Shown here: in pieces, positions 1 through 7,778 of the stretch | Layout: each line of letters starts with the position of its first letter | Position numbering within the stretch: the first letter of the stretch is position 1 | Assembly: GCA_018903055.1 (NCBI GenBank) | Contig: JAHIPW010000075.1 | Location: 1-7,786 of the forward strand | Direction of reading: 5' to 3' | Length of the DNA stretch: 7,786 bases | DNA from: DRGV01 sp018903055 [NCBI: bacterium] | GTDB taxonomy: Bacteria; UBP18; UBA7526 | Made by a program: the position numbers and the translations under genes | The notes under the pieces: model-generated | What the model saw: the letters and a program-made list of their open reading frames with translations, nothing else | The model's database searches: none | What the model was told of the DNA's origin: nothing

Positions 1-888
1 CCCTCCTATCCCTACAAGTATACCGCTCACATATTTAAGGATGCCGATATCTCCTTTGCGAACCTGGAATCTCCCCTATCCACAAAGGGAGAACCGAACC
101 CGAATAAGGAATATACCTTCCGAGCAAACCCCAAGGTCGCCGAAGGATTAAAGGATGCGGGATTCGACGTCCTATCCTTGGCCAATAATCACATCCTGGA
201 CTATGGAGGAGAAGCCCTTTTTGAGACCATAGAAGTCTTAGATAGCAAAATGATCTTCCACATCGGGGCAGGAAAGAATATTCAAGAGGCAAGGGAACCG
301 ATCATTCTCAAAGTAAAGAATAAAAAATTTGGATTCCTTGCCTATTCCAATACCTTCCCTGAAGAATTCTGGGCGAAAGAAGAAAAAGCAGGAACTGCCT
401 ATGGTAAATTTTCAAGCGTAAAAGAGGATGTCAAAGAACTAAAAGAAAAGGTAGATTTTCTAATTATTTCCTTCCACTGGGGAGATGAAGAGCAGGTCTC
501 TCCTCAGGAGTATCAAAGGAATTTAGCCCATCTGGCCATCGATAATGGGGCAGACATTATCTTAGGCCATCATACTCATATGCTAAGTGGTATAGAGACC
601 TATAAGAACGGGGTAATTATCTATTCTTTGGGAAACTTTGCCTTCGGCTCCTATAGCGAGAAAGCAAAAGAATCGGCAATCTTCAGGTTTTATTTTTCAA
701 AAGATAGGTTACAAAAATTAGAGATTATTCCTATTTCGGTCTATAACAAAGAGGTTAGGTTCCAACCCCAAATCCTTAAAGATAGAGAAGCAGAAAGAGT
801 CCTGGAAAGAATCCAGGAATTATCAAAAGAATTCAATACCAAGATTAAGGTAGAAAACTCCAAAGGAATAATTACCTTTTCGGAGTGA
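1..888 (+). CDS. CapA/PGA_cap-family metallophosphatase-like protein, 5' end outside the window
   Basis: Frame 1 is open from the first base of the window to TGA at 886-888, giving 295 residues without the N-terminus. The protein matches the CapA (poly-gamma-glutamate capsule, PGA_cap) family, a calcineurin-like metallophosphoesterase fold. Numbering from the window edge, visible family motifs are NLESPL (21-26), a FRANP-type stretch leading to LANNHILDYG (60-69), SFHWGDE (158-163), GHHTHMLSGIE (189-199) and YSLGNFAFG (208-216). The Asn/His motifs are the expected metal-site residues. The usual N-terminal GD motif and any signal peptide lie upstream of the window. TTG at 178 codes for the Leu of LANNHILDYG, inside the conserved core, so it is not the start. 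CapA proteins take part in capsule or polyglutamate export or related envelope chemistry, but the family is broad and the substrate here cannot be told. The gene converges on gyrA with a 38-bp gap. Confidence 0.9.
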   Translation, partial: PSYPYKYTAHIFKDADISFANLESPLSTKGEPNPNKEYTFRANPKVAEGLKDAGFDVLSLANNHILDYGGEALFETIEVLDSKMIFHIGAGKNIQEAREPIILKVKNKKFGFLAYSNTFPEEFWAKEEKAGTAYGKFSSVKEDVKELKEKVDFLIISFHWGDEEQVSPQEYQRNLAHLAIDNGADIILGHHTHMLSGIETYKNGVIIYSLGNFAFGSYSEKAKESAIFRFYFSKDRLQKLEIIPISVYNKEVRFQPQILKDREAERVLERIQELSKEFNTKIKVENSKGIITFSE

Positions 889-890
889 AA

Positions 891-934
891 CGGAGACCCC
901 GACCCTTTTCTTCCTGCTTGTCGGGGTTACTTTT
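891..934. repeat. Palindromic interspersed element, copy 1, spanning the gyrA stop codon
   Basis: This 44-bp unit matches 1042-1085 at 40 of 44 positions by eye. It contains the inverted pair ACCCCGAC (896-903) and GTCGGGGT (920-927) around a 16-base loop. The gyrA stop codon (complement of 927-929) lies at its edge. In the plus-strand direction it follows the CapA stop codon by 2 bases and is followed by T-rich sequence, so it might help terminate CapA transcription. However, the loop is long and the T tract is interrupted. Confidence 0.75.
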
Positions 935-3614
935 GACTTTTGGTTCTTGGCTTTTGACTCTTGACTTTTGACTCTTGACTTTCTTTTTTGAGGGGTCTTC
1001 CCCTTTTTCTTTTTTCTATTTTCCCACTTTTCGAAGCGGAGCGGAGACCCCGACCCTTTTCTCCCCGCTTGTCGGGGCTACTTTCTTTCTTTACCTCTAC
1101 TTCTTTCTCACTTTCACGCTTTCCCACTTTCTCACTTTCCCGCTTGTCGGGGCTACTTTCTCTTTTTACTTCTGCTTCCTCCCTATCCTGGTTGTTCATC
1201 ACCCGGGCAATGGCCACCACCTTATCTTCTGGCTTAAGTCTAATGAGACGAACCCCTTGAGTATTTCTTCCCATGGACCGGATATCCTTAATCGGAGATT
1301 GGATAATCATTCCTCTTGCAGTAACAATCATCAACCCATCAGAGGTATCAACCATCTTGATTCCCACCACCGGGCCATTCCTCTTGGTGGTCTGAATATT
1401 TATTACTCCTTTACCACCCCGCGACTGGACCCGATAATTGGTATGCTTGGTCCTTTTCCCATATCCATTCTCGGTAATCGCTAATAACGTGGCCTCCTCC
1501 CTTATGACCTCCATGCCGATTACCCGATCCTCCTTACTTAGCCTAATTCCCCTTACTCCCCTTGCTCCCCTTCCCATGCCTCGCACCTGGGTTTCTCGGA
1601 ATCTTATAGCCAGTCCCACCCTGGTTCCCAAGACAACATCCTGAGAGCCATCGGTCATCTTCACCTTCATTAACTCGTCCCCCTTATCCAGACGGAGAGC
1701 AATGATCCCTCCTGCCCGAGGACGAGAATAAGCAGCCAGATTGGTCTTCTTAATTACCCCCTTCTTGGTAGCCATAATGAGGAAGTGTCTGTCATCGAAC
1801 TCCTTCACTGGTATGAAGGTGGTGACAAATTCATCCTGATCCAGTTTTAATAAGTTAACAATGGCCTTTCCCTTGGCCGCTCTTCCTGTTTGGGGAATCT
1901 TATAAACCTTCAGCCAGTGAATCCTTCCCTTATTGGTGAAGCATAAGATATACTGGTGGGTAGAAGCAATCAGGAGATGCTCTACGAAGTCCTCTTCCTT
2001 GGTCCCCATTCCCGTGACCCCTCTTCCACCCCTTCTCTGGATGCGATAGGTGGAAACGGGAATCCTCTTTATATAACCAGTATGAGAAACAGTGATGGCT
2101 ACATCCTCCTCAGCGATTAAGTCTTCTACCTGGAACTCCTCCACCGCGGCCTTGGTAATCTGAGTCCTTCTTTTATCCCCGTATTTCTTCTTAATAGCCA
2201 ATAGCTCTTCACTAATAATATCCAGGACCTTCTGGGGATCCTTCAGGATTGTTTTATACTCCTTTATTCTCTTCTCTAATTCCTTATACTCCAGATCTAT
2301 CTTCTCCCTCTCCAGTCCGGTCAACCTCTGCAGTTTCATATCCAGGATGGCCTGGGCCTGTTCCTCACTCAATTCAAAGGCCTTGATTAACTTCTCCTCA
2401 GCCTCTTCAGGTGACTTGGAGGCCCTGATTATCTTTATCGTCTTATCCAAGTTAGCGATGGCAATACGCAGACCTTCCAGGATGTGGGCCCGGAGAGTGT
2501 CCTTTCTTAATTCATACTCTATCCTTCTTACCGTCACCCTTCGTCTATGCTCAATGTAGTGGACGATTACTTGCTTAAGGTTTAAGACCCGCGGACGGTT
2601 ATTGACCAGGGCGAGCATAATTACCCCGAAGGTGGTCTGCATTTGGGTATGCTTGTATAATTGATTCAGAATAACCTGAGCGATCTCACCCCTCTTCAAT
2701 TCAATGACAACCCTCATTCCTTTCCTATCCGATTCATCCCTTAAGTCCGCTATCCCTTCAATCTTCTTGGCCCGGACTAAATTAGCGATGGACTCCACTA
2801 ACCTTGCCTTATTCACCTGGAAAGGTATCTCTTTTACTATGATAGACTCTCTTCCTCCCTTATGCTTCTCAATATCCGCCCTGGCCCTCACAGTAATATG
2901 TCCCCTTCCTGTGGTATAGGCCTCTTCTATTCCGCTCCTGCCACAGATGAGAGCCCCGGTAGGAAAGTCTGGTCCTTTAATGATGGGGATTAACTTCTCC
3001 ACTTCAATCTCTGGATCATCTATGACCGCGATTGTGCCATCCACCACCTCTTCTAAATTATGGGGAGGGATATTGGTGGCCATTCCCACCGCAATACCCG
3101 ACGAGCCATTTACCAAAAGGTTTGGAATGGCAGAGGGTAGAATATGGGGCTCTTGCAAAGAGCCATCGAAGTTGGGGCCAAAGTTTACCGTCTCCTTCTC
3201 AATATCCTTGAGTATCTCCTCAGCCAGGGATCCTAATCTAACCTCAGTATATCTCATGGCCGCTGGCGCATCACCATCTACAGAGCCGAAGTTGCCCTGA
3301 CCATCGATTAAGGGGTGTCTCAGAGAGAAGTCCTGGACCATCCTGGTCAGGGTATCGTAGACCGCGGCATCCCCGTGAGGATGGTACTTTCCCAAGACCT
3401 CTCCTACAATCCTTGCCGACTTCTTATGTGGTCTGTTATGGGTCATCCCCATCTGATGCATGGCATAGAGAATCCTTCTATGCACTGGCTTCAGTCCATC
3501 CCTTACATCCGGTAATGCCCTACCGATGATGACGCTCATGGCATAATCGATATAGGAATCCTTCATCTCATCTTCAATATAAATGGGAATAATTTTTTCC
3601 TTAATCTCTACCAT
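927..3614 (-). CDS. gyrA: DNA gyrase subunit A with an extended basic repeat-derived tail
   Basis: This 895-residue protein is the breakage-reunion and DNA-wrapping subunit of gyrase, which acts with GyrB as A2B2 to introduce negative supercoils using ATP. The N-terminal winged-helix region carries DVRDGLKPVHRRILYAM and the active-site Tyr122 in AAMRYTEVRL. The QRDR reads HPHGDAAVYD, so the residue aligned to E. coli Ser83 is Ala83, while Asp87 is kept. A coiled-coil and C-gate region covers about 365-490. Six beta-pinwheel blade motifs begin near 508, 559, 615, 663, 713 and 764. The GyrA box QRRGGRG at 526-532 separates it from ParC. Residues 808-895 are a low-complexity K/R/E/S tail, net positive, with two ESSPDKR copies and an AT-hook-like RGRP core at 871-874. 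The ATG has AAAGGA 7 bases upstream (rc 3622-3627) and AGGAGG 13 bases upstream. It lies 42 bp after the HEAT gene, so co-transcription is likely. Confidence 0.98.
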   Translation of the reverse strand: MVEIKEKIIPIYIEDEMKDSYIDYAMSVIIGRALPDVRDGLKPVHRRILYAMHQMGMTHNRPHKKSARIVGEVLGKYHPHGDAAVYDTLTRMVQDFSLRHPLIDGQGNFGSVDGDAPAAMRYTEVRLGSLAEEILKDIEKETVNFGPNFDGSLQEPHILPSAIPNLLVNGSSGIAVGMATNIPPHNLEEVVDGTIAVIDDPEIEVEKLIPIIKGPDFPTGALICGRSGIEEAYTTGRGHITVRARADIEKHKGGRESIIVKEIPFQVNKARLVESIANLVRAKKIEGIADLRDESDRKGMRVVIELKRGEIAQVILNQLYKHTQMQTTFGVIMLALVNNRPRVLNLKQVIVHYIEHRRRVTVRRIEYELRKDTLRAHILEGLRIAIANLDKTIKIIRASKSPEEAEEKLIKAFELSEEQAQAILDMKLQRLTGLEREKIDLEYKELEKRIKEYKTILKDPQKVLDIISEELLAIKKKYGDKRRTQITKAAVEEFQVEDLIAEEDVAITVSHTGYIKRIPVSTYRIQRRGGRGVTGMGTKEEDFVEHLLIASTHQYILCFTNKGRIHWLKVYKIPQTGRAAKGKAIVNLLKLDQDEFVTTFIPVKEFDDRHFLIMATKKGVIKKTNLAAYSRPRAGGIIALRLDKGDELMKVKMTDGSQDVVLGTRVGLAIRFRETQVRGMGRGARGVRGIRLSKEDRVIGMEVIREEATLLAITENGYGKRTKHTNYRVQSRGGKGVINIQTTKRNGPVVGIKMVDTSDGLMIVTARGMIIQSPIKDIRSMGRNTQGVRLIRLKPEDKVVAIARVMNNQDREEAEVKRESSPDKRESEKVGKRESEKEVEVKKESSPDKRGEKGRGLRSASKSGKIEKRKRGRPLKKESQESKVKSQKPRTKSQK
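930..978 (-). repeat. 7-bp tandem array encoding the last residues of GyrA
   Basis: Seven consecutive 7-bp units read on the plus strand as CTTTTGA, CTTTTGG, TTCTTGG, CTTTTGA, CTCTTGA, CTTTTGA, CTCTTGA. The last four alternate strictly between two variants. Because 7 is not a multiple of 3, three units give a 7-residue period, which produces the S-K/S-Q-K pattern at GyrA 879-894. The array adjoins copy 1 of the palindromic element. Confidence 0.8.
990..1016 (+). terminator. Candidate intrinsic terminator for the CapA-like gene, inside the gyrA 3' end
   Basis: On the plus strand AGGGG (991-995) pairs with CCCCT (1000-1004) around the loop TCTT, with a possible G-T pair outside. It is followed at once by a T-rich run (1004-1015, one C). 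The opposite strand has no T run after the stem. The stem is only 5-6 bp, so the strength is uncertain. If used, CapA transcripts would overlap the end of gyrA by about 90 bases in antisense. The same bases encode the RGRP stretch of GyrA. Confidence 0.35.
1042..1085. repeat. Palindromic interspersed element, copy 2, inside the gyrA coding region
   Basis: This is the second copy of the 44-bp unit, with CCCCGAC (1048-1054) and GTCGGGG (1071-1077) separated by 16 bases, as in copy 1. It can form an alternative inner hairpin, CCCCG (1063-1067) with CGGGG (1073-1077). Read on the minus strand it encodes GyrA residues of the ESSPDKRGEKGRGLR region, about 844-858. It sits 151 bp from copy 1, so the two copies are in different frames relative to gyrA. 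Confidence 0.75.
1103..1142 (-). repeat. 8-bp tandem array inside the gyrA tail
   Basis: Five consecutive 8-bp units read on the plus strand as CTTTCTCA, CTTTCACG, CTTTCCCA, CTTTCTCA, CTTTCCCG. On the coding strand they give the RESEK-VGK-RESEK stretch of GyrA (825-837). The array lies between palindromic copy 2 and half-copy 3 and runs straight into the latter. Confidence 0.8.
1139..1160. repeat. Half copy of the palindromic element (copy 3)
   Basis: These 22 bases are identical to 1064-1085, the right half of copy 2. The offset is 75 bp, exactly 25 codons, so both copies are read in the same frame and give the duplicated peptide EVK-R/K-ESSPDKR (GyrA 815-825 and 840-850). The left arm of the large palindrome is missing here and is replaced by the 8-bp array. 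The flanking coding sequence is also similar, which points to a segmental duplication in the tail. Confidence 0.75.
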
Positions 3615-4251: not shown

Positions 4252-4346
4252 ACCATATGACCATAAGACAACAGGACCATCTGACATCTGATATCCGTGT
4301 CTATCCGTGTCACTATCTGCGATTAGCTTTTAGTTTTTAGTCTCCG
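4252..4346. repeat. Mosaic of short-period repeats upstream of the HEAT gene
   Basis: Three micro-arrays follow each other. From 4252 there are 8-bp units ACCATATG, ACCATAAG, ACAACAGG, ACCATCTG and a partial ACATCTG. Then come ATCCGTGT at 4293 and 4303 and a related ATCTGC at 4315. Then 7-bp units GCTTTTA (4326), GTTTTTA (4333) and GTCTCCG (4340) follow. There is no open reading frame of note and I see no convincing promoter, although one for the HEAT gene could be hidden here. Confidence 0.65.
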
Positions 4347-4360
4347 AACTCCCCACCTGT

Positions 4361-4388
4361 GGCGAGGTCTCGCCCCTTTGGGGCGGAC
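4361..4388. repeat. Strong hairpin in the gyrB-HEAT spacer
   Basis: CGCCCC (4371-4376) pairs perfectly with GGGGCG (4380-4385) across a TTT loop. GTC (4367-4369) and GAC (4386-4388) extend it with one bulged T. A competing inverted pair GGCGAG (4361-4366) and CTCGCC (4369-4374) overlaps it, so the RNA could switch between two folds. Neither strand has a T run after the stem, so a standard intrinsic terminator for gyrB is not supported. The 9-mer CTCCGAACT flanks it on both sides (4342-4350 and 4399-4407). Confidence 0.65.
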
Positions 4389-4412
4389 GAACTGTAAACT
4401 CCGAACTAAACT

Positions 4413-4453: not shown

Positions 4454-7190
<2,737 letters not shown>

Positions 7191-7697: not shown

Positions 7698-7778
7698 GTT
7701 AGCCTGTTAACCGGTTATCCTGTTAGCCGGTTAATCTGTCTAACCGGCAAACTGGTAAACTGGCCAACTGGCAAACTT
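7698..7778. repeat. 8-bp tandem array upstream of the dciA-like gene
   Basis: Ten contiguous units fit an 8-bp period, with one 9-bp step. They read GTTAGCCT, GTTAACCG, GTTATCCT, GTTAGCCG, GTTAATCT, then GTCTAACCG, then GCAAACTG, GTAAACTG, GCCAACTG, GCAAACTT. In the first five, the last base alternates T,G,T,G,T, showing a 16-bp higher-order unit. The array fills most of the region where the dciA-like promoter would be expected. I see no clear -10 box in the part available. Confidence 0.8.

Follow-up and report, generated by a model that had tools for sequence, protein, structure and literature searches.

A dispersed palindromic element lies at gene 3' ends and in frame within conserved genes, gyrA included, in a sparsely sampled bacterial lineage

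The 3' end of gyrA in DRGV01 sp018903055 carries two copies of a short palindromic element, one translated in frame within the GyrA tail and one directly behind the gyrA stop codon. The stretch analysed (hereafter the window; 7,786 nucleotides) is contig JAHIPW010000075.1 of a draft genome, G000 (1,085,295 bases, 191 contigs, 85% complete). We found the element dispersed through the six genomes of the phylum that were compared (G000 to G005), which belong to one family and are all draft metagenome-assembled genomes (MAGs), 53–93% complete. Most copies sit at gene 3' ends in the sense of the gene, and others reside in frame within conserved genes. The explanation that we favour, with moderate confidence, is that of a non-autonomous dispersed palindromic element that becomes coding in one of two ways, through displacement of the stop codon where a gene ends or through insertion in frame into a tolerant loop. 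The gyrA region is laid out as follows (window positions).

927 to 3614, minus strand: gyrA open reading frame (ORF), 895 aa, matched by Pfam PF00521 and PF03989, with a tail behind the C-terminal domain (CTD) at about aa 806–895
1032 to 1077, minus strand: palindromic element copy A, 46 bp, in frame in the gyrA tail (limits from copy comparison)
1078 to 1084, minus strand: left flanking direct repeat AAAGTAG of copy A (from the flank listing and the empty site in G004)
1023 to 1031, minus strand: right flanking direct repeat AAAAGTGGG of copy A (same basis)
881 to 926, minus strand: palindromic element copy B, 46 bp, noncoding, directly behind the gyrA stop
927 to 934, minus strand: left flanking repeat AAAAGTAA of copy B, containing the gyrA stop TAA (927–929)
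872 to 880, minus strand: right flanking repeat AAAAGGTAA of copy B
1139 to 1160, minus strand: truncated half copy in the gyrA tail

A preliminary description, made from the letters alone, had reported a 44-bp unit at 891–934 and 1042–1085, an exact 22-bp half copy at 1139–1160 and a peptide, ESSPDKR, encoded by two of the three. Our recount gave the same 40/44 identical positions and the same half copy, an exact match of 1064–1085, and the translation contains the peptide twice. A repeat search of the window returned a paired repeat of 58 nt with 88% identity, and with 1020–1165 as query the second copy was matched at E 6.8e-15, so that the repeat is not due to chance. The limits of the unit had to be moved, however: comparison of 18 simple copies placed the element at 1032–1077 and 881–926 on the minus strand. 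The gyrA stop, formerly placed within the second copy, lies just outside it in the flanking repeat, and residence in gyrA coding sequence is supported for copy A and not for copy B.

Simple copies measure 46–47 bp (one is cut at 41–42) and nested forms 93–115 bp. The 18 simple copies have a common architecture, that is, a 7-bp stem, a variable loop and then a conserved tail of the TCTCCGCTTCGCTCCG type. For both window copies the predicted fold is a stem of 7–8 bp with a loop of 16 nt, as first described; the loop is not fixed, since it varies within the family in sequence and by about one base in length. The outer stem was paired in 94.4% of cells, as compared with a maximum of 69.8% in slid controls, and 3/18 copies showed a double change from C-G to U-A on both sides of the outer stem pair. 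The right stem arm stops 16 columns before the end of the element, so that the inverted pair lies to one side and is followed by a tail that does not pair; the terminal inverted repeats that mark miniature inverted-repeat transposable elements and Rickettsia palindromic elements (RPE) are absent from the element. Two other traits were rejected. An inner hairpin, said to add folding choice, was paired in 67.8% of cells against a shuffled mean of 69.0, that is, it showed no conservation. The absence of stop codons in six frames is no special trait, as 15/24 listed copies were stop-free and so were 1334 to 1343 of 2000 dinucleotide shuffles of three copies.

A covariance model built from 9 copies and searched against the six genomes gave 28 matches at E<=0.1 and 24 at E<=0.001, the latter distributed as 9, 6, 1, 3, 3 and 2 in G000 to G005, some of them being parts of one nested element. 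Further copies, for which the preliminary description had proposed a search, were thus present in the host genome and in every genome of the phylum set. Under stricter filters, weak matches occurred in 5/187 other genomes (best E 6.8e-6), and two of four inspected by eye were tail-like. Two genomes outside the phylum, G110 (L151) and G006 (L153), contained a hairpin whose tail looks alike by eye, a hint that a wider superfamily may exist. Scanning viral contigs for the exact pattern gave 0 matches, as did Rfam at gathering scores on the window.

This distribution bears on whether the repeat might simply have arisen by duplication within the gyrA tail or be an artefact of assembly. We consider that very improbable, and for the full copies local duplication is, from the sequence comparison, already refuted: copies lie on many contigs in six genomes, and the gyrA copy is found at the same place in three MAGs with its frame kept. 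Copy B is 93% identical to a copy on contig C171 and 91% to one on C60 as compared with 87% to copy A, and was therefore rejected as a local duplicate of copy A. What can be said for a local origin is the draft state of all the genomes and the half copy, which repeats upstream context of copy A (EAEVKRESSPDKR / EVEVKKESSPDKR). Because of this common context, the half copy, first taken as a copy of the element in its own right, probably arose by local duplication of gyrA tail sequence. The earlier suggestion that the element moves fits the dispersed copies and the element-free relatives described below; movement itself, the enzyme behind it and the order and direction of events are what we infer.

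We then considered placement at 20 independent loci. At 6/20 the element lies in frame within a protein gene, in agreement with the first impression of in-frame residence in gyrA. The gyrA tail, gatA and an ABC-transporter ATPase gene (all in G000) carry it in the sense of the gene; leuS and a DegT aminotransferase gene in G004, and the same DegT gene in G005, carry it antisense. The element-bearing internal genes of G000 and G004 matched their Pfam domains over nearly full length, and the match of the DegT protein of G005 was split in two. On solved homologues, the gatA site maps between residues 327 and 332 of 3h0l chain A, and the leuS site to a gap-bearing stretch of the editing domain in 1h3n. 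A second gatA fragment, 78% identical, occurs in G000 (C27:559–795), where strain mixture or contamination is possible.

Thirteen of the 20 loci lie at the 3' end of a same-strand ORF (>=100 aa), and all 13 elements are in the sense of the gene, the stop codon falling between 42 nt before the element and just behind it. Two of these copies are translated whole and form the C-terminus of an SMC-type protein in G000 and of a ThiD2 protein in G001; at two more, behind a PSP1 gene and a phosphorylase gene of G001, the reading frame extends a few residues into the element. The other nine begin 3 to 42 nt past the start of the stop codon; they include copy B, where a convergent gene ends too. Locus G001C36 is uncertain, being in frame with a 118-aa ORF (PKD domain) and lying 123 nt behind another ORF. 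Nested units occurred at several loci. As a side observation, at L124, L141, L147 and L129 and at window 881–934 the left flanking repeat contains the stop codon, 3 to 10 nt ahead of the element.

Such a bias toward gene ends could mean that the hairpins are kept as RNA signals there, acting in transcript ends, stability or termination, with coding as a side effect of stop shifts. The 13/13 sense orientation and the conserved outer stem speak for this, and terminator-like sites were enriched in window 700–1300 (7 as compared with 1.2, sd 1.4, in shuffles). Yet the terminator-like matches inside the element correspond to the non-conserved inner hairpin on the opposite strand, the sense strand has no T run after the right arm, and the two window copies fold with an energy ordinary for their composition, within the range of shuffled sequences (z -0.05 and -1.16). 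The lack of an Rfam match in the window and the six loci within genes, three of them antisense, also argue against an RNA role, which we regard as rather unlikely.

Orthologous sites provided the next line of evidence. The element was absent from 3/3 leuS orthologues covering the site (G001, G003, G005), from 2/2 gatA orthologues (G001, G003; that of G002 is uninformative, being N-masked in part and ending before the site), from DegT in 2/4 species (G002, G003) and from the ABC ATPase in 5/5 other genomes. Relatives with gyrA tails lacking the unit, which the preliminary description had suggested seeking, were found as well: the tail of G002 is short and without the element, that of G004 is long and empty at the site, and that of G005 is uninformative, as the contig stops before it. 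At the gyrA site G004 reads GAGAGAAAGTGAGAAAATTGC, and G003 reads GAGAGAAAGTAG, element, AAAAGTGGGAAAATTGC, that is, one octamer in the empty site and two surrounding the element.

The flank test used 20 rows, after four of 24 that repeat a locus in another species had been removed: two for gyrA (G001 and G003) and two for the uppP neighbour (G004 and G001). Flank pairing averaged 6.15/8, as compared with 4.71 (sd 0.23) on reassignment of flanks, with 0/5000 reassignments as high; 10/20 loci scored >=7/8 as compared with 11.8% of cross pairs. Locus G002C38 is under-scored, its element end being placed one base late. A target-site duplication (about 8 bp) would leave such pairing, and an element that landed inside a tandem array would show it too.

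Arrays proved common at these sites. At the four element-bearing internal loops, an in-frame array of period 7 or 8 was present in 10/12 element-free orthologues (LeuRS, the leucyl-tRNA synthetase, 3/3; ABC ATPase 5/5; GatA 1/2; DegT 1/2), each at p<=0.005 against 1000 shuffles. The array unit is usually species-specific, although G003, G004 and G005 have a common type in the ABC ATPase. Across 25 gene sequences we counted 27 arrays as compared with 4.85 in codon-shuffled genes, where two of the 27 are runs of N (both from G002), one is part of the conserved CTD of GyrA, and the expectation includes N-bearing sequence. LeuRS has three such loops in G004, G003, G001 and G005 (aa about 370–405, 647–711 and 710–769). 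At the first, three species have an in-frame 7-bp array and G004 has the element; at the second and third, each of the four full-length orthologues has 7/8-bp arrays, with partly differing units. This occurrence of arrays at element loops, unforeseen by the preliminary description, is the most surprising part of the analysis. In the ABC ATPase of G005 (L193) we noticed another small palindrome, in frame in the middle of an (AAAGTCC)n array.

A possibility was that what moves is the block of 7/8-bp arrays, which would spread when repeats recombine, undergo gene conversion or allow template switching, with the palindrome as passenger. Besides the arrays in element-free orthologues, this would account for loop subtypes that track flank array types (by eye), for one compound array, (CCAGTTAA)n-(AAACCGGC)n, that occupies two loops of the G001 LeuRS and one of the G005 LeuRS, and for the ABC ATPase of G000, where the duplicated flank is about 31 bp, not 8 bp, and is a single, partly diverged copy in the five orthologues. 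However, some copies, among them C60 and that in the ABC ATPase of G000, have no evident adjoining array, the sequence of the element is conserved even where the arrays differ, and arrays alone leave the gene-end sense bias unexplained. We hold it unlikely, if a little less so than the RNA role. A tentative wider proposal, which we put somewhat below even odds, is that the loops and tails of LeuRS (three loops), GatA, the ABC ATPase, DegT and GyrA are standing landing sites, at which array and hairpin blocks would be repeatedly gained, swapped and nested in frame, most species having a different insert at the same point.

Three further features lie in the GyrA tail.

1103 to 1139, minus strand: octamer array of the AAAGTGRG type, coding ESEKVGKRESEK
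929 to 982, minus strand: heptamer array of the AAAAGTC / AAGAGTC type, coding the final GyrA residues
990 to 1015, plus strand: terminator-like hairpin and T-rich run, 3' of the convergent PGA_cap gene

The tail frame crosses arrays, element and hairpin and is open in G000, G001, G003 and G004, where the first in-frame stop lies 312, 420, 414 and 252 nt, respectively, from a fixed anchor; the other two frames together contain 15, 14, 8 and 8 stops. In G001 and G003, a second unit is nested in the element loop. The 990–1015 hairpin has a G+C-rich stem followed by the T-rich run, its complement codes RGRP in the GyrA tail, and it is read in the same phase in 4/4 long gyrA tails. By eye, KRKRGRP is common to four species; as the same bases form the terminator-like hairpin on the other strand, however, the protein cannot be named as the reason for its conservation. 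An AT-hook in the tail was rejected, Pfam at E up to 10 giving none in three tails. In an AlphaFold model, pLDDT (the model's local confidence score) fell below 50 from residue 808, as compared with 80–93 over most of the CTD at about 600–760; the model had 16 alignment rows, a mean pLDDT of 64.6 and a poor N-terminal part, and was used for the CTD/tail contrast alone. Relative to G000, the GyrA of G005 contains additional residues close to the N-terminus (ATGSESLRARRE).

We think that copy A once lay behind a stop codon and became coding after the ORF was extended, because 13/20 loci are sense copies at gene ends and copy B lies behind the present stop. The G004 gyrA may have lost the unit or never had it; GyrA trees left the branching order of the six species unresolved and thus do not decide between gain and loss.

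Taken as a mechanism, the element would settle mostly at the 3' end of a gene, in its sense, close behind or across the stop codon. By a first route, the stop would be displaced and the ORF would read into or through the element; this is the history that we prefer for gyrA, the newer copy now lying behind the new stop. By a second route, the element would enter internal loops in either orientation, at places variable between species. It would land beside or inside 7/8-bp arrays or move with them, come to lie between direct repeats of about 8 bp, and nest in its own copy. Selection would act as a filter, copies in essential genes surviving only at tolerant sites and with the reading frame intact, and such inserts would be tolerated rather than useful.

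Several points weigh against this account of a mobile element. No insertion event was observed, all genomes are draft MAGs, and survivorship alone would leave in-frame copies. The REP-type transposase PF01797 was found in 0/6 genomes (53–93% complete) as compared with 5/14 control genomes, other transposases not having been searched. Half of the loci (10/20) scored below 7/8 in the flank test, seven of them at 3 to 5; flank repeats can be explained by landing in a tandem array, and like flanks recur with like loops (by eye), as if arrays travelled along. The gene-end sense bias is also expected from an RNA role, and the stem covariation is modest, 18/500 shuffles equalling it.

We compared the element with known systems as described in passages of the cited papers. 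In-frame palindromic insertions are best known there from Rickettsia and Wolbachia, with intragenic repetitive extragenic palindromic sequences (REPs) and RU elements in other bacteria (PMC3767692, PMC3733652, PMC2759123). RPE measure 105–146 bp (PMC2229807) and have terminal inverted repeats, and for RPE-4/6/7 some orthologues lack the element or have another family near the same place (PMC2229807, PMC10969869, PMC3767692). Our element resembles them in being a palindrome dispersed between genes and in frame in conserved genes, with variety at the same site. It differs in its size of 46–47 bp (nested 93–115), in the lack of terminal inverted repeats and in its lineage. The resemblance first proposed thus stands for in-frame insertion and not for size and ends, and by analogy the element appears to work like an RPE, to which it is likened by description and not by sequence. 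Overall, the preliminary interpretation was partly supported.

GTAG/CGTC-tagged REPs are short palindromes, some of them intragenic and some giving stop codons to flanking ORFs (PMC3733652). The present element is likewise short, sometimes within ORFs and sometimes supplying stops, but GTAG directly precedes the stem at 2/20 loci and CGTC at 0/20, and PF01797 was not found in the six incomplete genomes, as said above. YPAL/RU-2 of Yersinia (about 168 bp) has internal inverted repeats, is not A+T-rich and makes target duplications of variable size (PMC2229807), and RU elements are fused in frame in enterobacteria (PMC2759123; RU-1 127 bp, RU-3 103 bp). These traits recur here, namely internal repeats, a composition that is not A+T-rich, variable duplications and co-translated copies, YPAL being nearest in internal repeats and variable duplications. 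In contrast, the element is 46–47 bp as compared with about 168 bp, and YPAL/RU come from Enterobacteria. Heptamer arrays are known from Beggiatoaceae (TAACTGA) and Cyanobacteria (PMC4679880); in Beggiatoaceae, some of the dispersed 7-bp direct-repeat arrays likewise cover stops or lie within ORFs. The Beggiatoaceae arrays are described as mostly intergenic, upstream of starts and of one main unit, whereas those studied here have several units, lie in frame in loops of essential genes and vary between species. Among the titles and abstract openings listed in searches of the open literature, with subscription work mostly outside it, none dealt with the combination of element and array, which is weak evidence of novelty.

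The rest of the window contains gyrB on the minus strand like gyrA, a HEAT-repeat gene, a DciA-like gene and the convergent PGA_cap gene. One more feature belongs to a different family of palindromes.

4351 to 4389, minus strand: member of a second dispersed palindromic family (CGCCCCAAAGGGGCG type) in the spacer between gyrB and the HEAT-repeat gene

With window 4338–4402 as query, this second family gave 38 matches in 5/6 genomes, and a member also lies within the gene for the ABC ATPase of G000. Tandem arrays with periods of about 10 and 8 occur in intergenic sequence at 6902–6961 and 7698–7777, near gyrB and the DciA-like gene.

Collectively, these data place the element in a gyrase, a tRNA synthetase and an amidotransferase subunit of a sparsely sampled lineage, together with species-specific arrays and a strong sense bias at gene ends. 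Repetitive DNA appears to extend these proteins bit by bit. Since filled, empty and nested states occur at the same orthologous sites, movement, and insertion as opposed to stop displacement, can be tested across close strains. If standing landing sites do exist, they would represent a general way in which mobile DNA of very small size extends proteins, a resident transposase perhaps not being needed.

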